Assembly: GCF_020524585.1 (NCBI RefSeq)
Contig: NZ_JAIVLK010000004.1
Span: forward strand, 1-64,000
Direction: 5' to 3'
Source: Celeribacter naphthalenivorans
Lineage (GTDB): Bacteria; Pseudomonadota; Alphaproteobacteria; Rhodobacterales; Rhodobacteraceae
Length of the DNA stretch: 64,000 nucleotides
Shown here: in pieces, positions 4,701 to 16,629 of the stretch
How positions within the stretch are numbered: position 1 is the stretch's first letter
Layout of the letters: every line of letters begins with the position of its first letter
Position numbers and translations under genes: made by a program
Notes under the pieces: generated by a model
The model's input: only the letters and a program-made list of their open reading frames with translations
Database searches by the model: none
Told to the model about the DNA's origin: nothing

Positions 4701-7031
4701 TTATTCCCCGTAAGGCACCCAGATCGTCTTGACCTCGGTCGCCTGCGCCAACCAGTCCCGCGCCGGATATGCCCGGCTTAGCCCGTTGTTGACCCAAGTG
4801 CGTTTGAGATTCCCGGCGCTCTCCTTTTCGATCACGCCAGAAATCTCGGCGGAGGAGAAACTCCACACCGCCTCGACATCCATATGCCCGGCCATGGTCT
4901 TGGCCAACTCAGCGTGCGGTCCGGTGAGGATGTTGACCACACCCGCGGGCACGTCTGAGGTGTCGAGCACCTGATAGAAATCCGTGGCAGCCAAAGGATA
5001 GGCCTCCGAGGCCACGGCGATCACCCGGTTGCCCATGGCAATCGCGGGGGCGATCACCTCGATCAACCCCGCCAATGGCCGGTCGTCACTAAACGCACCG
5101 ATCACGCCGACGGGTTCATTCATCGCCAAAGCCACACCGCGCATCGGCACGGGTTTTGCCGCCCCGTCTAGCTTGTCGCACCAAGCGGCATAGGTGAAGA
5201 GCGTGTCAATCGCCTCCGTCACTTCTCCTCGCGCTTTCGCCTCGGTCGTGCCGGTCAGCTCGCGGAGGCGCGTGGCGAATTCATCGGTGCGGGCGGAGAG
5301 GTTTTCGCCCACGAAATACAGCACCTGCGCGCGGTTGTGGGCGGTGGCTTTGGCCCAACCTTTGGCACCCTGCGCGGCCTCAACCGCGTTGCGAATGTCC
5401 TTGCGGCTGGCAATCGAGCTATGGCCCAACAGTTTGCCTTTGGGCGAGTAGATCGCCTGAGAATAACCGCCATCGGGCCGCGCCTGTTTGCCGCCGATGT
5501 AGAGCTTTGCGGTGCGATCAAGGCCGAGAACCTCAACGTCATCGGGTTTGACATGCGCCTTTGCGGGCTTCACCGGCGTGGCTTTGCCCGCAGGTTTGGT
5601 ATAGGCCATCAGCCCTTCCCAACCACCTTCGCGGCCAAAACCGCTCTCGCGCACACCGCCAAATCCGGCCGCGGCATCGAACATGTTCGACCCGTTGACC
5701 CAGACGACACCCGCGACCAGTTTCGGCGCAATATCCAACGCCAGATTGACGTTCTCGGTCCAGACCGACGCCGCCAAGCCATAACGCGTGTTGTTCGCCA
5801 CCTGCACCGCCTCGGCGGGCGTGCGGAAGGTGGTGGACACGAGCACCGGCCCAAAGATTTCCTCTTGCATCAAGAGCGACGAGGGCTCCAGCCCCGACAC
5901 CAAAGTCGGCGGGTAGAAACAGCCCTCCGGCGCTTTCACGGGTTGATGAACGGTGCCCTCGGCGCCGCCCTTGGTCACGAGGCTTTCGATCCGTTGCAAT
6001 TGCACCGGGTCCACGATGGCCCCGACATCAATGCTCTTGTCCAAAGGATTGCCGATGCGCAGGTTGCCCATGCGCGCTACAAGCCGCGTGTGGAAATCCT
6101 CGGCGATGCCTTCCTGAACGAGCAAACGCGATCCGGCGCAGCAAACTTGCCCCTGATTGAAGAAAATCGCATCGACCAGCCCTTCGATAGCGCTGTCGAT
6201 GTCGGCATCTTCAAAGACGATGTAGGGCGATTTGCCGCCCAGCTCGAGCGTCAGAGATTTGCCCGACCCGGCGGTTGCCTCGCGAATGCGCCGTCCGACG
6301 GCGGTCGATCCGGTGAAGGCAATTTTGTCCACGCCCGGATGCGTCACGATCATCTCGCCCACCCCGCCGTCGCCGGTCACGATGTTGACGACGCCTTTCG
6401 GCACACCGGCCTCTTGGCAAATCTGCGCAAAGAGCAAAGCGGTCAGCGAGGTATATTCCGCCGGTTTCAACACCACCGTGTTGCCCATCGCAATCGCGGG
6501 CGCGACCTTCCACGCCAGCATCAAAAGCGGGAAGTTCCACGGGATGATCTGACCGCAAACGCCAAGCGCTTCGCGCCCCGGCAGTTCCTCGTCCATGAGC
6601 TGCGCCATGCCCGCGTGGTAATAGAAATGCCGCGCCACCAGAGCCACGTCGATATCGCGGCTTTCGCGGATTGGCTTGCCGTTATCCAAGGTCTCCAACA
6701 CGGCAAACAAACGCGCGTGTTTCTGTACCAGACGCGCCAGCGCATAAAGCACCTTGGCCCGCGCTTTGCTGTCCTTCGCCCATTTGCTTTGCGCTTTGCG
6801 CGCGGCGGCCACGGCGGCGTCCACATCGGCCTCGGTGGCCTGCGTCAGATGCGCCAGAACCTCGCCCGTGGCCGGGTTCTTCGCCTCGAACACCGCGCCC
6901 GGTTCCGTCATCTTGCCACCGATGAACAGGCCAAAGCGATCACCGCCATCCACCAGCCACGCCAGCGCCTCCGCCGCGCTTTCGGGCGCCATGCCATAGT
7001 CCATCGTGTCGAAAATCTCTTTCACGCTCAT
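4701..7031 (-). CDS. ALDH16-type aldehyde dehydrogenase with a second, non-catalytic ALDH domain
   Basis: A 776-residue protein with two aldehyde dehydrogenase units in tandem. The first (about residues 20-480) is complete: LELGGKSP, the FFNQGQ-C-C-AGSR motif with catalytic Cys297, and the EEIFGPV cofactor loop. The second (about 505-776) repeats the N-terminal Rossmann half but has no catalytic cysteine motif and ends WVPYGE. This layout is that of ALDH16, known from a structurally characterised roseobacter protein (Loktanella); the human relative lacks the catalytic cysteine, but this one keeps it. Just downstream of deoC on the same strand, it probably oxidises the acetaldehyde released by DeoC with NAD. 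Confidence 0.85.
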   Translation of the reverse strand: MSVKEIFDTMDYGMAPESAAEALAWLVDGGDRFGLFIGGKMTEPGAVFEAKNPATGEVLAHLTQATEADVDAAVAAARKAQSKWAKDSKARAKVLYALARLVQKHARLFAVLETLDNGKPIRESRDIDVALVARHFYYHAGMAQLMDEELPGREALGVCGQIIPWNFPLLMLAWKVAPAIAMGNTVVLKPAEYTSLTALLFAQICQEAGVPKGVVNIVTGDGGVGEMIVTHPGVDKIAFTGSTAVGRRIREATAGSGKSLTLELGGKSPYIVFEDADIDSAIEGLVDAIFFNQGQVCCAGSRLLVQEGIAEDFHTRLVARMGNLRIGNPLDKSIDVGAIVDPVQLQRIESLVTKGGAEGTVHQPVKAPEGCFYPPTLVSGLEPSSLLMQEEIFGPVLVSTTFRTPAEAVQVANNTRYGLAASVWTENVNLALDIAPKLVAGVVWVNGSNMFDAAAGFGGVRESGFGREGGWEGLMAYTKPAGKATPVKPAKAHVKPDDVEVLGLDRTAKLYIGGKQARPDGGYSQAIYSPKGKLLGHSSIASRKDIRNAVEAAQGAKGWAKATAHNRAQVLYFVGENLSARTDEFATRLRELTGTTEAKARGEVTEAIDTLFTYAAWCDKLDGAAKPVPMRGVALAMNEPVGVIGAFSDDRPLAGLIEVIAPAIAMGNRVIAVASEAYPLAATDFYQVLDTSDVPAGVVNILTGPHAELAKTMAGHMDVEAVWSFSSAEISGVIEKESAGNLKRTWVNNGLSRAYPARDWLAQATEVKTIWVPYGE

Positions 7032-10032: not shown

Positions 10033-10944
10033 TCACGAGACAGGCTGGAGGAGGGTGATGCCCTCTTCCTGTGCCAAGGCCTCGAGGTCTTCCTCGTAAT
10101 GCGCGGTCAAAACATCGATGGCCTCCGCGTCCCAGCCGGGGATGTCACAGCGCGGCGCCAGAGCCTCTTCGCGTCCATATTTGTCCATGAACGCCAGCAT
10201 GACTCTCTCATATTGAACGGTCGTTTCCGGCGGATGGCTGATCAAATAGGTTTTCAGCCGCTCAAAGCCTTCCTCCACCAACAAAGGTTTCAGCGGCAGG
10301 ATGCGCCCGGACACCGGCACCTCTGGGGGCAGGTGAAACAGGCGCCGCATCACGGTCGGCCAGATCAGCGGCGCGTCCTCTTCGGCCCAGATCAGAAGCG
10401 GCACATTGGGCACGGCTTTGCGCAAGGCCTCGACCGTATCGCGCCAGCGCAGGCCCTCCGGGGCGACATGATCGACAAAGGTGCTCAGCAGACGCGGCGC
10501 GGTGCCCGACGCAAAGCTGTTGCTCATGAAAATCGCCGGATTGATCAACGCCATGCTGATCTGCAACTCCGAGGCGGAAAACAGCTCGGCCACCGCCGCG
10601 ACACGGTCCCCAATGCCGGGATAAAGCGTTTCACCATCCACCGCGTCCCGCAGCGGAGCGGCCCAGCGGTCATCGGCCAGAAACAGATGCTGCGCCCCGG
10701 ATTTGCCCAAGAGCGCGCGGCGCACCTCGTCCTCTTCCTCGACAATCGGCGGCAGGCCATCGAGGCCCTCGAGCATCTTGGAAATCACGCCCCAGGTGTG
10801 ACGCTTGGCGGGGACATGCACGCCATGCGCCTTGAGCGGCGCACGGTTCACGGAGACGGAGCGTTGCAGGTAGCCGTCGGTGGTGAAATGCACCCCGATA
10901 TGCAGCGTCACACGCGGTTTTTCTGTCGCTTTGGCGTCGCTCAA
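10033..10944 (-). CDS. Sulfotransferase-like protein of unknown function (TTG start)
   Basis: A 303-residue protein. Its N-terminus (VTLHIGVHFTTDGYLQRS, then a segment ending GVHVP) follows the pattern of sulfotransferase-fold proteins, where a strand, a TGTT-like loop and a helix open the domain. Here the phosphosulfate-binding loop is degenerate (HFTTDGY), so activity is doubtful. There is no signal peptide. No ATG or GTG fits the junction: the start is taken as TTG at 10944, which overlaps the upstream stop as TTGA. This tight coupling to the two GT2 genes points to the same surface-glycan pathway. The fold call is an inference from the first 40 residues. Confidence 0.6.
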   Translation of the reverse strand: MSDAKATEKPRVTLHIGVHFTTDGYLQRSVSVNRAPLKAHGVHVPAKRHTWGVISKMLEGLDGLPPIVEEEDEVRRALLGKSGAQHLFLADDRWAAPLRDAVDGETLYPGIGDRVAAVAELFSASELQISMALINPAIFMSNSFASGTAPRLLSTFVDHVAPEGLRWRDTVEALRKAVPNVPLLIWAEEDAPLIWPTVMRRLFHLPPEVPVSGRILPLKPLLVEEGFERLKTYLISHPPETTVQYERVMLAFMDKYGREEALAPRCDIPGWDAEAIDVLTAHYEEDLEALAQEEGITLLQPVS

Positions 10945-13166
10945 TGTGCCGTCTCCCCGCGATCCACGGTGAAAAAGAATTTCTCCTCGCCGTCTCGTTC
11001 CAACACTTCGTCGGGCACGCATTCCGGGCCGGTGAGAAACACGTTGGCGCCGAAATGGCGGTGCATGCGGCTGAGTTTTTCCATCCGCAGGCCGGTCAAC
11101 TCAGTATAGAAATTGCTATAGTTTTCCGTCGCCCGCAGCTCCGCAATCTTGTCCTTATGGGCTTTGACACAGGCCTCGTGCAGGGCGCGAATGTCGGGGT
11201 CGGCCAGCAGCCGGTCGAACTCCGCCTGAAGCTTCGGGATCATCCGCTGGATCGAGCGTTCTTCCTCGAAGTTGTTGTTCATGCGGAACCAATAGGCGAG
11301 GCCTTGGTCGCGGTCCACGTGGTTCACCCGGCCCCGGTCGCGTTTCACGAGAAAGCTTTCCGCCGAGCGCACCGCGTAGTGGTTGAGCTGCACCACGTCA
11401 TAGCCATAGGTCGAGGCGTTCGACCGCCAGGCGTTGCGGTATTCGCCCTCCGGCATGGGTTTGGCGGAGCCATTGTACCAGCGGATCTTGTCCCAGATCT
11501 GCGGTTTGAGGCCTTTGGGCCGATGAACGCCCAATTTCTTGAACAGACCGACATTCTTGAACAGAGTTTTGAATCCCCAGGCCTGATGCGGTTTGTTGGC
11601 AAATTCGGGCGCGCAACGAAAGAACTGTTCGATCAAAAACCGGTCTTCGTACTCATGCACATCGTTGTTGCCAAAGAGCCGCCAAGTGCAGGAAATCAGG
11701 TTCGCGTCCGGCACCACATCGAAGAGCGCGGTCATCGTGCCGTCACCCACCTTGATGTCGATGAACTCGTCCACATCCATGGAGATCGCCCAGTCGCTTT
11801 CCATCACGACGGGTTCTTTCTCGGCCTGCTGCAACGCGTGGTGCTGCGGTTTCAATCCGGTGCCGTGAAACTTGTTGTCGCGGTGCTGGACGTAGCCTTT
11901 CTCTTGCAACAGATCGAGGAAGGTGTCGGTGCCGTCCGTGCAATCATTGGTGTAGACCAGAAAACCCTCGATCCCGATCGCGCGGTGATAGGCCAGCCAT
12001 TCGAGGATGAACGGCCCCTCGTTTTTCATGCAGGTCACAATCGCGACCGAATTGTCGCCCTTGGGCGGCTGTTCCACCTCTTCATGCGGCATGAGGATCG
12101 GTTTGTGATCCCATTCCTGCTCCGACATTTTGATCAGCGGCGCATGTTCGATCAGCGAGGCCTTGGGGACGATTTTCGACACAGTGGGCGCGCGGTGGCG
12201 GAGCGCCATAAAGCGGTAAAACGGATAGGCGACCTCCGGCTCGACCCCGCCGATCCGCACCAGACGGAACACGGCCTGATCGTCGAGCGCACTCATCGCG
12301 GCGCACCAACGGCCACGACGTTTCTTGGCGTCGAACTGAATGCAAATGTGATCGGCAAAGCGCACGGGATCGTCGTCCCGCACACGCCACGGATAGCATT
12401 GTTGGCCGACAAGCTGCACCACGCCGCCTTTGGCCCTTTGAGCAAGATCGAACATCGTGCCGCGCGGATCACGGGGGACGAGGTCATAGACCTCGATATT
12501 GGCCACCGCGCGGGCCTCGTTCAGAAAGAGGTGCCGCAGCATCTCATAGATCAACACATCGCCCAAAGGCGCGGACCATGGATCGGGAGTTGGCACCTTC
12601 ATCCGGTCCTTGCCCGGCGCGCCGGGGGTGACGAAAGGGTGGTGCTCAGGCGCGCTGTCGGCCTGTCCCAAGGGCACATCGCAATCGACCAGAAGCACGG
12701 TGAGATCGTCGAAATTTTTCAGGCCGCTTTCCAGCGCTTTGGCAAATGCCTCATCCGTGCCGGGGGCCGCGCGATCCAGAATGACCGCGCCTGTCAGGCC
12801 CTGATGTTTGACGTGATAGCCCAGCCACTCCAGCACCGTTTCCGCCGTCTCGCCATTGCGCGTGGCCAGCGCCACATTGCGCCCGGCCATCAGCGAGGGT
12901 TCTGGTGCCTTGGGGGCGATGTCCATCAATTCGCTGTTGAAAAACGCCTGAATGCCGCCCCCGGGGATGCGCCCGGTGAGCCACGGCGCATCGCCTACAC
13001 TGCGGGTCTCGGCCGCATCCAAAAGCTTTTCGGCCACGATGGGGCTGACCTCGGAGCCTTTGGTGAAAAACAGATGTGCGCCTGCGTCCCCCGTCTGAAC
13101 GGCGGCCAAAAGCACTGCCGGGCCCAGATCGCGCGATTGGATGTGATGTCTGTCAAACTGTGCCAT
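10941..13166 (-). CDS. Two-module glycosyltransferase family 2 protein
   Basis: A 741-residue protein. The C-terminal module (about residues 373-600) is a GT2 domain of the Glyco_tranf_2_4 type: SVAIVTCMKNEGPFILEWLAYH, the metal-binding D464-V-D466 in MDVDEF, and LGVHRPKG, followed by a helical tail with NHYAVRSAESF. The N-terminal module (about 95-300) seems to be a diverged copy: ALATRNGETAE, EWLGYH at 113-118, a PGTDEAF echo of DGTDTF, and a candidate D161-C-D163. No signal peptide or membrane helix is visible, so it probably acts in the cytosol on a lipid- or protein-linked acceptor. It follows the neighbouring GT2 gene by one base and overlaps the next gene. Confidence 0.78.
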   Translation of the reverse strand: MAQFDRHHIQSRDLGPAVLLAAVQTGDAGAHLFFTKGSEVSPIVAEKLLDAAETRSVGDAPWLTGRIPGGGIQAFFNSELMDIAPKAPEPSLMAGRNVALATRNGETAETVLEWLGYHVKHQGLTGAVILDRAAPGTDEAFAKALESGLKNFDDLTVLLVDCDVPLGQADSAPEHHPFVTPGAPGKDRMKVPTPDPWSAPLGDVLIYEMLRHLFLNEARAVANIEVYDLVPRDPRGTMFDLAQRAKGGVVQLVGQQCYPWRVRDDDPVRFADHICIQFDAKKRRGRWCAAMSALDDQAVFRLVRIGGVEPEVAYPFYRFMALRHRAPTVSKIVPKASLIEHAPLIKMSEQEWDHKPILMPHEEVEQPPKGDNSVAIVTCMKNEGPFILEWLAYHRAIGIEGFLVYTNDCTDGTDTFLDLLQEKGYVQHRDNKFHGTGLKPQHHALQQAEKEPVVMESDWAISMDVDEFIDIKVGDGTMTALFDVVPDANLISCTWRLFGNNDVHEYEDRFLIEQFFRCAPEFANKPHQAWGFKTLFKNVGLFKKLGVHRPKGLKPQIWDKIRWYNGSAKPMPEGEYRNAWRSNASTYGYDVVQLNHYAVRSAESFLVKRDRGRVNHVDRDQGLAYWFRMNNNFEEERSIQRMIPKLQAEFDRLLADPDIRALHEACVKAHKDKIAELRATENYSNFYTELTGLRMEKLSRMHRHFGANVFLTGPECVPDEVLERDGEEKFFFTVDRGETAH

Positions 13167-13167
13167 A

Positions 13168-14193
13168 TCAGGCCTGTCTGTCCTCGGTTCTGTCTTCAGT
13201 CTTCAGCGCCTTGAGACGCGCCAGATGCGCCGCCAATTGGGTTGGGCCGGGGGCGACCGAGCCACCCATGAGCGTCAGTTGCCACATCAATTCGACCACG
13301 TCGCGCCGCAATGTCAGGCGTTTGAGCGCCGCGCGGTGATAGCCCACCGTCTCCGCGTGCAGATCGTCGAACTCCGACAATTCGGCACGGGCTATTGCGG
13401 TGGCCTCTCGCATCGGTGCGATCCGGGTATCCTCAAGGGTGTTAAAATTCCGCTCCGCCCAATAGCCGGCGCCTACGGATTTTTCCATGTGGTTTGGCAG
13501 GCCGCGCTGGGATTTGAGGAGGAATTCCTCGATGGAGCGTGTGGAATAGTGATTGATCCAAGCCTGTTCGCCTTTGGAGGTCAGGCCAAAGAGATTGATC
13601 CGTGATTGCTGCGCGGCGAAATCCGGCGCCATCGGGCGGCCTGCGGCAGTGACCCAGCGCGCCTCTTTGCCTTTCGGACGATGGACGCCGAGACCTTTGA
13701 ACGCTTGCGGCCGGTGCAGGGTTTTGAAGAAATGCGCAAGCGGCAGAGAGACGTCGTCAGGCGCCGCCATGGTAAACCGCTCCGTCACCGGACGTTCGTC
13801 CCAAGTGCCAAGCCCGCTGTTGCCAAACAGATGCCAGCGCAGAGGCATGGCGTCGGCATCCTCGGGCAGAAGGTCCGCCAGAGGCACTTCGAGCACGAGA
13901 TATTCGTCGACATCGAAAAACAGTGCCAGATCAGCCTCTTTGTAGAGCGGGTGCTTAGACAGTTTTTTCATCGCCTGCCATTGCACGGCCTTCTCGCCCT
14001 CGGGCACGAAGGGCAGGTGGCTGACCACCCCCGCAGCGTCCAGCGCATCGAGCAACCGGTCCGTGCCATCCGAACAATCGTGCGAGGCGATGAGGACCTG
14101 CGTAAACCCAGCCGCTTTGTGATGGGCGATCCAATCCAGAAGCCAAGGCCCCTCGTCGCGGATGCATGTGATCGCGAGTGTGTTCAAACCCAA
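13168..14193 (-). CDS. Glycosyltransferase family 2 protein
   Basis: A 341-residue GT2 protein (Glyco_tranf_2_4 type). The nucleotide-sugar fold starts at residue 3 (TLAITCIRDEGPWLLDWIAHH), the metal-binding D94-V-D96 lies in FDVDEY, and LGVHRPKG and INHYSTRSIEEFLLKSQRG follow. The last two motifs are shared almost word for word with the 741-residue neighbour, so the pair arose by duplication. It is the first gene of a three-gene minus-strand operon. No membrane segment is seen. Donor sugar and acceptor are unknown; the cluster suggests exopolysaccharide, capsule or protein glycosylation. Confidence 0.82.
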   Translation of the reverse strand: MGLNTLAITCIRDEGPWLLDWIAHHKAAGFTQVLIASHDCSDGTDRLLDALDAAGVVSHLPFVPEGEKAVQWQAMKKLSKHPLYKEADLALFFDVDEYLVLEVPLADLLPEDADAMPLRWHLFGNSGLGTWDERPVTERFTMAAPDDVSLPLAHFFKTLHRPQAFKGLGVHRPKGKEARWVTAAGRPMAPDFAAQQSRINLFGLTSKGEQAWINHYSTRSIEEFLLKSQRGLPNHMEKSVGAGYWAERNFNTLEDTRIAPMREATAIARAELSEFDDLHAETVGYHRAALKRLTLRRDVVELMWQLTLMGGSVAPGPTQLAAHLARLKALKTEDRTEDRQA

Positions 14194-14399: not shown

Positions 14400-15404
14400 A
14401 TGGATAAACTACCCGAGATCGCGTCGCTTTGGATCGGCGGCAAGTTGAGCTGGCTGGAACAGCTTTGCCTGAAAAGCTTTGCCGATCAGGGCCATCACAT
14501 CACGCTCTATTCCTACGAGCCGATCCCCAATGTGCCGCCGGGGGTTCATGTGGCCGACGCCGCCGAGATCTACCCCGGCGAGCCAATGCTGCGCCACGCG
14601 CGGACCGGCAGCCCCGCGATCCATGCCGATATATGGCGGCTCAACCTGTTGAAGAAGACCGACAAGATTTGGGTCGATGCGGATATGTATTGCTACAAAC
14701 CCTTCGACTACAGCTCGCCTTATGTCTTTGGCTGGGAAAAGCCGGGGTTGGTGTGCAACGCGGTTCTGGGCCTGCCGTCGGACAGCAAAACTTTGAACGG
14801 CTTGTTGGAGTTCTTTGAGGACGAATATGCCATCGCGCCCTGGCTCAAACCCGAACAGATCGCCGAGCTTGAGGCCGAACGCGACGCGGGCACGCCGGTG
14901 CATATGACCGAGCAAACCTGGGGCTTTACCGGGCCGTCCTCCGTCACGCATTTCCTGATCGAGACCGGAGAGATCGAACACGCGCAGCCCGAACCCGCCT
15001 TTTATCCGGTGAGTTTCAAGGAGCGAAACCACCTGATCATCAGCCGTTTCAAACCCGAAGAGCGGTTCACGGAGGACACGCGCGGCGTGCATTTCTGGGC
15101 GCGTCGGATGAAGCCGCGTCTGGAGGAAAAAGAAAACAACACGCCGCGGCGCGGGTCCTTCATGGATGAGCTGATCAAGAAACATGCCATCGATCCGGCG
15201 GCGGCGCCGATTCCGGCCAAAAAACCCAATGCGAACGCCAAGGCCCCGGTGGACGACCCGGCGTTTCAGGCGCAGATCGGGTTGGAGGCGCTGAAGGGCG
15301 AGCTGTCGATGGACAAGATTTGCCGCGAGTTTCTGGTGGACAAGAAATTCGTGCGTGAGTGCCGCGAAGTGATCGAACAAAAGGCGGCCACGCTGTTCGA
15401 GTGA
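14400..15404 (+). CDS. DXD-motif glycosyltransferase with an IS3 OrfA-like C-terminal tail
   Basis: A 334-residue protein. Residues 1-265 are a glycosyltransferase of the sugar-binding DXD type (Gly_transf_sug): SLWIGGKLSWLEQLCLKSF, HADIWRLNLL, and the metal-binding D93-A-D95 in WVDADMY. A proline/alanine-rich linker (about 265-288) leads to a 46-residue tail (289-334) with LEALKGELSMDKICREF and a helical end. It matches the first helix-turn-helix of IS3-family OrfA transposases, which commonly read LEALKGEKT followed by LA-E-GV. No inverted repeats or other transposase remains are nearby. The gene is divergent from the GT2 operon and convergent with the AbrB gene. Donor and acceptor unknown. 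Confidence 0.75.
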   Translation: MDKLPEIASLWIGGKLSWLEQLCLKSFADQGHHITLYSYEPIPNVPPGVHVADAAEIYPGEPMLRHARTGSPAIHADIWRLNLLKKTDKIWVDADMYCYKPFDYSSPYVFGWEKPGLVCNAVLGLPSDSKTLNGLLEFFEDEYAIAPWLKPEQIAELEAERDAGTPVHMTEQTWGFTGPSSVTHFLIETGEIEHAQPEPAFYPVSFKERNHLIISRFKPEERFTEDTRGVHFWARRMKPRLEEKENNTPRRGSFMDELIKKHAIDPAAAPIPAKKPNANAKAPVDDPAFQAQIGLEALKGELSMDKICREFLVDKKFVRECREVIEQKAATLFE

Positions 15405-15415
15405 GGGAAAACGCT

Positions 15416-16507
15416 TTAGTATTTGAGCCGCTCTGCCAATCGGGTCAGCAAAGAGGGGGCGACGGCCACGAGGATCACGATCCGCACGAGGTGGTGGATC
15501 GAGATATAGGCCACCTCCGCATGCATCGCCAAAGCCACCAGAGACATCTCTGTCAGCCCGCCGGGCGCATAGGCCAGAAGCACCTGTTCGACGGTCTGGC
15601 CGAACATGCCGTGCAACAGCACCGCAAAGCCCAGAGACAGCCCCATGGTGATCAGGGTGCCGCCCAGCGTGAGCAACAGGGTTTCGCCCACCAATTTGGG
15701 TTTGGCGCCACGAAAGCGACAGCCCATGGTGGTGCCCAGCACAATCTGCGCGATGATCACCAGAAGGCCCGGAGGCGAGGAATGCGTCAGCCCCGCCATA
15801 TGCACCACGCCTGACAACAGCATCGGCCCCAAAAGCCCCGGCGCGGGGAATTTGAGCTTGGTCCCGATCCAATTGCCCAGAACTGCACAGGCCAAAAGGA
15901 TCGCGCCGCTCATCAGAGTGAGGCTCTCCCCCTCGGCATGAAGCGGCACACCGCGCACCTCATAGCCCAGCACGACGCGAAACCACAAAGCGATGATCGA
16001 GATCGTCACCACGATCCGCCCGGCGTGGGCCAGAATGATCCGCTTTTCATCGCCGCCCAAAGCGCCGCCGATCACCGTCATCTCATTGAGCCCGCCGGGC
16101 ATGGCGGAGAAGAACGCGGTCACCGGATCGAGGCGCCCGATCTTGATGTAGAACGGCACGACCAGAATGGCGGCAAGGACGAGATAGACCGCCAGTCCGG
16201 CCAGCGAGAGGCCCCATTGGCTGAGGTGGTGAAAGGTCTCTGTGTCGAAACCTGACCCCAACATGACGCCGATCACCGGGATCACGAGGGGGCGAAACCG
16301 CCCGGAGGTTTCAAGCGGCGCACCCGCCATGACACAGGCGAAAATCACCAACATCGAGCCAAGCATCCACGGCAAGGGCAGCCCGGCGAGGTAAAACGCG
16401 GTGCCACCCAAAGCGCCGAGGGCCAGCGTCAGAATGTTGCGGGTTGCGCGTGTCTTGTCCGAGGGTGCTGTCAAAATCCGATCCCGAGCCTGTCGTCGCG
16501 TCACCAT
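15416..16507 (-). CDS. AbrB-family (AmoA-like) integral membrane protein
   Basis: A 363-residue polytopic membrane protein with about ten hydrophobic helices arranged as two similar halves: GLPLPWMLGSM early in the first, FPAPGLLGPMLLSG in the second. The repeated MPGG(L/F)NEM and APGGLTEMSL motifs are characteristic of the AbrB family (PF05145), whose members are poorly characterised and sometimes mislabelled ammonia monooxygenases. It is unrelated to the AbrB DNA-binding regulator. The ATG at 16507 is preferred, giving a short basic N-terminus before the first helix; a GTG at 16555 is possible. It ends 11 bases from the convergent glycosyltransferase gene. Confidence 0.83.
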   Translation of the reverse strand: MVTRRQARDRILTAPSDKTRATRNILTLALGALGGTAFYLAGLPLPWMLGSMLVIFACVMAGAPLETSGRFRPLVIPVIGVMLGSGFDTETFHHLSQWGLSLAGLAVYLVLAAILVVPFYIKIGRLDPVTAFFSAMPGGLNEMTVIGGALGGDEKRIILAHAGRIVVTISIIALWFRVVLGYEVRGVPLHAEGESLTLMSGAILLACAVLGNWIGTKLKFPAPGLLGPMLLSGVVHMAGLTHSSPPGLLVIIAQIVLGTTMGCRFRGAKPKLVGETLLLTLGGTLITMGLSLGFAVLLHGMFGQTVEQVLLAYAPGGLTEMSLVALAMHAEVAYISIHHLVRIVILVAVAPSLLTRLAERLKY

Positions 16508-16629
16508 AGCGAGGCTGTGGTCAGGGGCAAGGCGATGGGATTTGGGATTTTGCACATCCCCTGCGCAACGGGGCTTGGGGCTGCCTATGATTTCGGCTTT
16601 GCCTCGCGGTTTTTCGTAGATTTCGGCTC

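Follow-up and report, generated by a model that had tools for sequence, protein, structure and literature searches.

An IS3 OrfA-type helix-turn-helix tail on a glycosyltransferase of the Rhodobacteraceae, probably kept through an exchange of the catalytic domain

A glycosyltransferase (GT) gene of Celeribacter naphthalenivorans, situated in the stretch of 64,000 nucleotides that was analysed as a whole (hereafter the window), ends in a short tail which is homologous to the helix-turn-helix (HTH) domain of an IS3-type OrfA transposase protein (Table 1). The reading that we favour, and hold to be somewhat more probable than all its rivals, is that an OrfA HTH was captured by a GT, was retained through an exchange of the enzyme in front of it and now acts as a docking module. 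Within it, the capture by a GT in an ancestor of several genera of Rhodobacteraceae is well supported and the retention of the tail through the enzyme exchange is supported, though not certain, while docking, judging from sequence comparison, would be the most likely function.

Table 1. Features of the glycosyltransferase gene and its neighbours, in window coordinates.
Feature	Position	Strand	Evidence and remarks
Glycosyltransferase (GT) gene with captured tail, 334 aa	14400..15404	+	Intact ORF
Predicted catalytic GT-A domain, residues 1-272	14400..15215	+	AlphaFold2, Foldseek, invariant columns
Pro/Ala/Lys linker, residues 273-285	15216..15254	+	Alignments; length varies among relatives
IS3 OrfA-derived HTH domain (tail), residues 286-334	15255..15401	+	Profiles, fold, trees
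Tail helix 1 (predicted), residues 287-299	15258..15296	+	AlphaFold2
Tail helix 2 (predicted), residues 304-311	15309..15332	+	AlphaFold2
Tail helix 3 (predicted), residues 315-333	15342..15398	+	AlphaFold2; counterpart of OrfA putative recognition helix
Neighbouring glycosyltransferase, Glyco_tranf_2_4	13171..14193	-	Pfam, synteny; divergent from GT; locus marker
Neighbouring 741-aa glycosyltransferase, Glyco_tranf_2_4 / GT92	10944..13166	-	Pfam, synteny; locus marker
Downstream AbrB-family (PF05145) gene	15419..16555	-	Pfam, synteny; locus marker

The reading frame of the gene is unbroken, as the initial annotation of this DNA had stated, and full-length orthologues are present in the same genus. 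With a GT-A fold in the structural model and a D-x-D motif (D93-x-D95, 14676-14684) that is invariant in the alignment columns of the catalytic domain, the product is predicted to be a GT-A glycosyltransferase. The full-length AlphaFold2 model had a pLDDT of 89.2 and, when its catalytic half was submitted to Foldseek, the GT domain of SetA (E 2.3e-7) and glycogenin (E 1.4e-6) were retrieved. These GT-A, DXD enzymes share the fold of the catalytic half, in a comparison of fold only, and differ from the GT in being just 12-20% identical to it and in having no HTH tail. PF05704 (Caps_synth) scored 16.2 bits with the window protein, below its gathering cutoff of 24.5. For homologues on plasmids (14 records), the alignment was confined to GT residues 1-258. 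Ahead of the tail, where a Pro/Ala linker had been proposed, a linker rich in Pro, Ala and Lys was found. The resemblance to the IS3 OrfA HTH had been assigned to residues 289-334 (FQAQIGLEALKGELSMDKICREFLVDKKFVRECREVIEQKAATLFE); these coordinates proved exact and the similarity goes beyond chance, the domain itself starting three residues earlier, at D286.

Neither the window protein nor its tail gave an HTH match in Pfam and NCBIfam at E ≤ 10, and both were likewise without a match to PF01527 (HTH_Tnp_1) at E ≤ 10. Used singly as queries against PDB sequences, they also produced no significant hit for the tail. Since the window sequence alone finds no HTH, the case for homology rests on the family. 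The profile check proposed at the outset was thus negative for the window tail taken alone, whereas it was positive for profiles of the family of GT tails, which matched OrfAs, so that the significant OrfA match whose absence was to count against the idea does exist. In a tblastn search of its own genome with E ≤ 10, the tail had two non-self matches (E 0.098 and 0.15). Both are OrfA genes that exceed the PF01527 cutoff (26.1 and 32.9 vs 24.1 bits), and the OrfB adjoining one of them is an IS3 transposase (NCBIfam E 2.9e-82, 276.8 bits, cutoff 160). In agreement with the earlier claim that no transposon remains lie nearby, this search gave no other match inside the window (C4:1-64000), no match within it was obtained with PF01527 at E ≤ 1e-5, and a profile of 46 tails found no second match there at E ≤ 1e-6. 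No transposase or orfB was present among the five neighbouring ORFs scanned with Pfam, and no leucine zipper follows the HTH, as the protein ends one residue after the terminal LF.

With a profile built solely from 13 GT tails (A1), we searched 295 genomes belonging to the family. Its best 15 places, found in 15 of the 295 genomes (L064-L078), were in GT genes, 13 of them confirmed by translation and two (L074 and L077) assigned through contigs equal in length to those of L153 and L139, and next after the GT genes came ORFs of OrfA size, with a best E of 2.8e-10 over positions 2-49 of 49; 30 loci were fetched from this search. With a 56-tail profile, built without identical copies and without six tails that were truncated, partial or weak, 18 OrfAs scored 37.9-55.2 bits, end to end, ungapped and including the terminal LF. 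The PF01527 loci L034-L063 and 12 IS66 TnpA loci were also part of the set; outside the 18 OrfAs, the highest score was 13.9 bits, and the best score of 100 column-permuted profiles in the same set was 13.1 bits (median 6.9). Of the 18 scored OrfAs, 15 had been fetched with A1, that is, selected as good matches; those reached independently of A1 scored 37.9 (L002), 44.9 (L003) and 40.2 bits (L052) with the 56-tail profile. In a Pfam scan of 10 orthologous tails, PF01527 was the best family for seven, which had been picked for keeping the OrfA Trp, and a single tail of the 10, from Cognatishimia (L138), passed the cutoff (28.1 vs 24.1 bits); the three scanned tails without Trp (L104, L112, L157) had no PF01527 match. 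With a single Shimia tail (L124) as query, an OrfA-like ORF of 95 aa was retrieved in a Shimia genome (E 1.2e-5). Taken together, these sequence comparisons identify the tail as an OrfA HTH, by profile-level homology over the entire domain. It shares one 48-residue ungapped pattern with the N-terminal HTH of IS3 OrfA (PF01527) of the type FKAKVALEALKGE...LLEGA..VF and departs from OrfA in having neither leucine zipper nor orfB, in being fused after a GT and in having mostly lost the signature of the recognition helix.

The IS66 TnpA model of NCBIfam (NF047595) weakly matched eight of the 10 scanned tails, always far below its 74-bit cutoff, and was the best NCBIfam model for several of them. 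An IS66 origin was rejected because none of the 12 IS66 TnpA loci exceeded 7.2 bits when scored with the tail profile.

The fold of the tail was predicted by AlphaFold2 from 46 rows with a pLDDT of 96.8, with helices at tail positions 2-14, 19-26 and 30-48, which the full-length model repeats (Table 1). Structure prediction, the further check that had been suggested, thus gave a three-helix fold and not a different one. In the available part of the report on the binding domain of the IS2 transposase (PMC3219604), three helices are described in the same order as in the tail. When the tail was compared with the PDB by VIA-align, a mitoribosomal protein came top (Z 6.2), followed mostly by generic HTHs (TrpR, HetR, sigma region 4, DnaA and IstA) with Z about 5-6, and the best E in Foldseek was 0.77. 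The structure search, run on a predicted model, supports the fold of the tail, not its family.

Relatives of the GT were taken as the best 80 of 350 and hence lean to tailed GTs; the genera among these best 80 include Celeribacter, Pacificibacter, Shimia, Cognatishimia, Sulfitobacter, Rhodovulum and Nereida. The 80 loci, together with 18 of the 30 loci of another orthologue search, and without duplicates or partial rows, made up a GT tree of 98 rows, in which a profile score over 10 bits was taken as presence of the tail. By this measure 65 of the 98 rows carry the tail and 33 do not, so that homologues of both kinds exist and a tail common to all GT homologues, which had been named as a refuting result, was not what we found. 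The tail is present in 58 of the 67 rows of clade A, to which the window belongs, and in seven of the 20 rows of clade B, where it is restricted to one nested part. Among the nine tail-less rows of clade A, L154-L156 are basal (support 86 and 80, with two long branches), which fits a state before the capture, and the remaining six of the 64 rows above this trio (L140, L142, L144, L145, L151 and L152) point to loss or replacement. The tail is therefore dispensable in some lineages. When 289 genomes of the class were surveyed with the 46-tail profile at E ≤ 1e-6, 21 had matches; two were GT tails, both within the window's family, and the other matches listed were ORFs of 92-175 aa. The capture is old, the tail being common to many genera of the Rhodobacteraceae and not local to this genome. 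Of the initial proposal that a captured fragment was kept as a new C-terminal domain, capture and retention have stood, while the domain is not always C-terminal and the capture was not a local one.

Trees of the tails were calculated from 48-49 columns; for the second, the 54 distinct tails were thinned to 48. In the first tree a single branch sets all tails apart from 17 OrfAs (100/96), and in the second from 35 OrfAs (100/96), which fits a single capture as far as so few columns and such long branches can tell. In a Shimia subclade (L118, L119, L123, L124, L127, L128 and L130), helix 3 is OrfA-like, IKQWRTQLIEGA or near it; by the GT tree these Shimia (tails about 6850-7000) nest among Shimia with Cys at that place, and their helix 3 could either have been regained in part from an IS or have been kept from the ancestor. 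One tailed GT (L023 / L071, G032:C1:1603184-1604178) appears to be split in two frames near residues 101-116, either as a pseudogene or through a sequencing error.

All seven tailed GTs of clade B are found at the window's locus, namely L157-L160 and, placed by the wider stretches L200, L198 and L199, also L015, L017 and L019. Their GT92-type and GT2-type neighbours are 64-91% identical to those of the window; between the two clades, GT domains are 42-52% identical. The same locus holds eight A-type GTs, that of the window and those of L094, L095, L096, L097, L132, L201 and L202, the latter seven being 72-98% identical to the window's. Thus, 15 of 15 GTs at the locus carry the tail, which in L096 is cut before the terminal LF. 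The window's neighbour order and strands were found in none of the eight tail-less clade-B rows examined out of 13, of which L165 has nearly no upstream flank and L163 has weaker homologues in a different order. For one A-type Celeribacter GT (L099), the window's gene order was not found within the 6-kb flanks. In two trees, the clade-B tails nest among those of clade A with supports of 96/91 and 86/89. The identity of tails to that of the window is 37-56% for clade B and 51-96% for the A-type GTs at the locus, and since the former range overlaps just the low end of the latter, the exchange is likely rather than certain. In pairs between the clades, mean identity is 47.5% for the GT and 37.2% for the tail, i.e. 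tails evolve faster; identity is no proof of tail transfer, and the argument for an exchange therefore rests on synteny and tree position. On these two lines of evidence, the simplest account, likely though not certain, is that the gene at this locus exchanged its clade-A catalytic domain for one of clade B and kept the tail. As the catalytic part would have been replaced under a kept tail, the value of the tail seems to be tied to the locus or its products and not to one catalytic domain.

The GT92-like part of the 741-aa protein encoded at the locus is its C-terminal half, the first ~370 residues being without a Pfam match, and no Pfam match was obtained for a 329-aa ORF (10036-11022) beside its gene. 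Homologues of both occur at the locus in relatives.

Selection on the gene was estimated from seven close pairs as pooled, uncorrected pN/pS, which is quoted because several dS values were near saturation. The GT domain had a ratio of 0.056 (nd 120.3, sd 600.7) and the tail one of 0.11 (nd 50.2, sd 127.8); the linker, at 0.21 (nd 15.5, sd 22.5; small counts), is the least constrained part. Judged by these ratios, the tail is under purifying selection, tighter than on the linker and looser than on the enzyme. An intact frame, purifying selection, presence in many species and no adjoining mobile element, the features expected of a host gene with an exapted transposase domain, were all found.

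A column comparison of 55 clade-A and seven clade-B tails with 18 OrfAs, near-duplicates included, showed that the hydrophobic core is mostly retained in the tails (e.g. positions 4, 6, 13, 28, 33, 40 and 48). His29 is present in 17 of 18 OrfAs, in none of the 55 clade-A tails and in two of the seven clade-B tails; Pro30 and Gln35, each in 16 of 18 OrfAs, occur in 11 and 10 of the 55 clade-A tails, respectively; and Trp36, invariant in the 18 OrfAs, is kept in 13 of 55 clade-A and in none of seven clade-B tails, its place being taken by Cys321 in the window. By this alignment, most of the OrfA H-P-x-x-I-x-Q-W signature is gone from the tails. All 62 tails have Lys or Arg at position 34, and 51 of them have Arg at position 37. 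At position 24, Arg or Lys is found in 60 of the 62 tails, and Thr, Gln, Ala or Ser in 15 of the 18 OrfAs. Mean net charges of tails and OrfAs are 0.23 vs 0.22 for the domain and 1.3 vs 1.6 for helix 3, and those of the 14 residues preceding the domain are +1.7 vs +3.3. Trp36 corresponds in the alignment to Trp49 of IS2, whose change to Arg abolished transposition with DNA binding intact, according to the part of that study at hand (PMC3219604). Since this change leaves binding unaffected, the loss of the Trp is no proof of lost DNA binding; by analogy, it may indicate that the domain was freed from its role in transposition, without DNA binding necessarily having been lost.

In the sequence of events that we propose, the 5' part of an IS3-type orfA would have been fused in frame at the 3' end of a GT-A gene in an ancestor of several genera of Rhodobacteraceae, the three-helix HTH alone being kept and the leucine zipper and orfB not. 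The domain would then have been inherited with the GT, keeping its fold and being under purifying selection, until, at the window locus of Celeribacter and Pacificibacter, the catalytic part was swapped for that of a distant relative and the gene kept a tail. The folded core and the conserved basic residues of the tail might bind a protein partner, for example a neighbouring glycosyltransferase, or a polyanion, and docking of this kind would hold the enzyme in a complex. Two other views of the origin were considered. That the likeness to OrfA arose by convergence, in some generic HTH or in a three-helix bundle of unrelated descent, is highly improbable: the window tail finds nothing in Pfam or NCBIfam on its own, other HTH families weakly match some tails, a PDB sequence search with a 13-tail profile gave chance-level matches (best, ribosomal protein eL40, E 0.066) and a mitoribosomal protein heads the VIA-align rows, but the ungapped match over the whole domain is to one type of OrfA, at 37.9-55.2 bits against no more than 13.1 for permuted profiles, PF01527 members other than the 18 OrfAs stay at or below 13.9 bits, and PF01527 is the best Pfam family for seven of the 10 tails (those picked for Trp), once above its cutoff. 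Convergence has thus largely been refuted already. Two separate captures, by clades A and B or by Cognatishimia and some Shimia apart from the rest, seem very unlikely to us. Tails do occur in two GT clades, and those keeping the Trp (Cognatishimia and one Shimia group) are nearest to OrfA in the tail tree, in conflict with the GT tree, which nests them in clade A; this conflict is also a point against the favoured reading. The tree program, however, warned of long branches meeting where the Cognatishimia tails join OrfA. Moreover, none of the 35 OrfAs falls among the tails, and the clade-B tails, at one shared locus, lie within those of clade A.

As to the function, the conserved basic positions 24, 34 and 37 and the OrfA-like charge also suit DNA binding, a point against our preferred reading. 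It is nevertheless rather unlikely that the tail still binds DNA sequence-specifically, which would give the enzyme a second role as a regulator or anchor it to the chromosome. The kept HTH fold, the DNA-binding HTHs among which most PDB look-alikes are found (TrpR, sigma region 4, HetR and IstA, Z about 5-6), the basic residues with the charge just mentioned and the stay of the tail with the locus through the apparent enzyme exchange agree with such a role. However, the positions 29, 30, 35 and 36, (near-)invariant in OrfA, are changed or variable in most of the 62 tails, and the stretch of 14 residues ahead of the domain is less basic than in OrfA. The zipper that multimerises the IS911 transposase, as given in the accessible text of PMC2909936, is absent here, and for the analogous mariner HTH of F-box proteins, no binding to the ancestral repeats was detected, according to the portion of PMC12062965 available. 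Specific DNA binding by the tail is accordingly considered less likely than docking, and keeps some probability because the basic residues are conserved. A narrower version, in which the domesticated transposase HTH lets the GT moonlight as a DNA-binding protein that regulates the locus of the GT itself (presumably one for surface polysaccharide), is clearly unlikely; if true, it would explain why the tail stays with the locus despite the exchange of the catalytic domain. Doubtful, too, is the view of the tail as a folded, functionally idle spacer which stabilises the C-terminus or came to serve as a linker for fused modules. The tail lies between the GT and a sulfotransferase (L158) or Pfam-less modules (L096, L105) and is absent in some relatives, as a spacer might be, but it is more constrained than the linker (whose counts are small), its basic residues are conserved and every one of the 15 GTs at the locus has it, once truncated.

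To our knowledge, the capture of transposase domains by host proteins has been documented mainly in eukaryotes. The closest precedent that we have seen is the Caenorhabditis F-box A2 family with a captured Tc1/mariner HTH, for which the available portion of the report (PMC12062965) gives protein contacts. It resembles the present case in having a transposase HTH in a host gene, purifying selection and a proposed role in protein-protein interaction, and differs in being eukaryotic, derived from Tc1/mariner and spread over many genes, whereas the tail described here is bacterial, of IS3 type and placed on a glycosyltransferase (PMC12062965, same portion). In the titles and abstract openings of the papers listed, no bacterial glycosyltransferase with an IS3 OrfA domain is named, and the main text of a review on mobile elements recruited by prokaryotes (PMC8987985), as far as available, does not contain the words 'glycosyl', 'IS3' or 'fusion'. 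Host capture of a transposase domain is a known kind of event, and what seems to be new is the exchange of the catalytic domain under a kept tail. The case offers an identifiable source family, intermediates that keep more of the OrfA signature and tail-less relatives; together with the exchange locus, these make it a tractable system for the role of a captured HTH on an enzyme.

The C-terminus of these GTs frequently swaps modules. After the tail, L158 and L148 carry a sulfotransferase, and L096 and L105 a module without Pfam match that is methyltransferase-like by eye, while in L144 an FkbM methyltransferase stands at the place of the tail. In L158, from Celeribacter baekdonensis, the domain following the tail belongs to PF03567, and L160, of the same species, and L015, from a relative, have a domain after the tail that looks alike. 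Additional modules that either follow the tail or stand where it would be are carried by the same-clade GTs L096, L105, L115, L144, L145 and L151, the last with a methyltransferase match below the cutoff.
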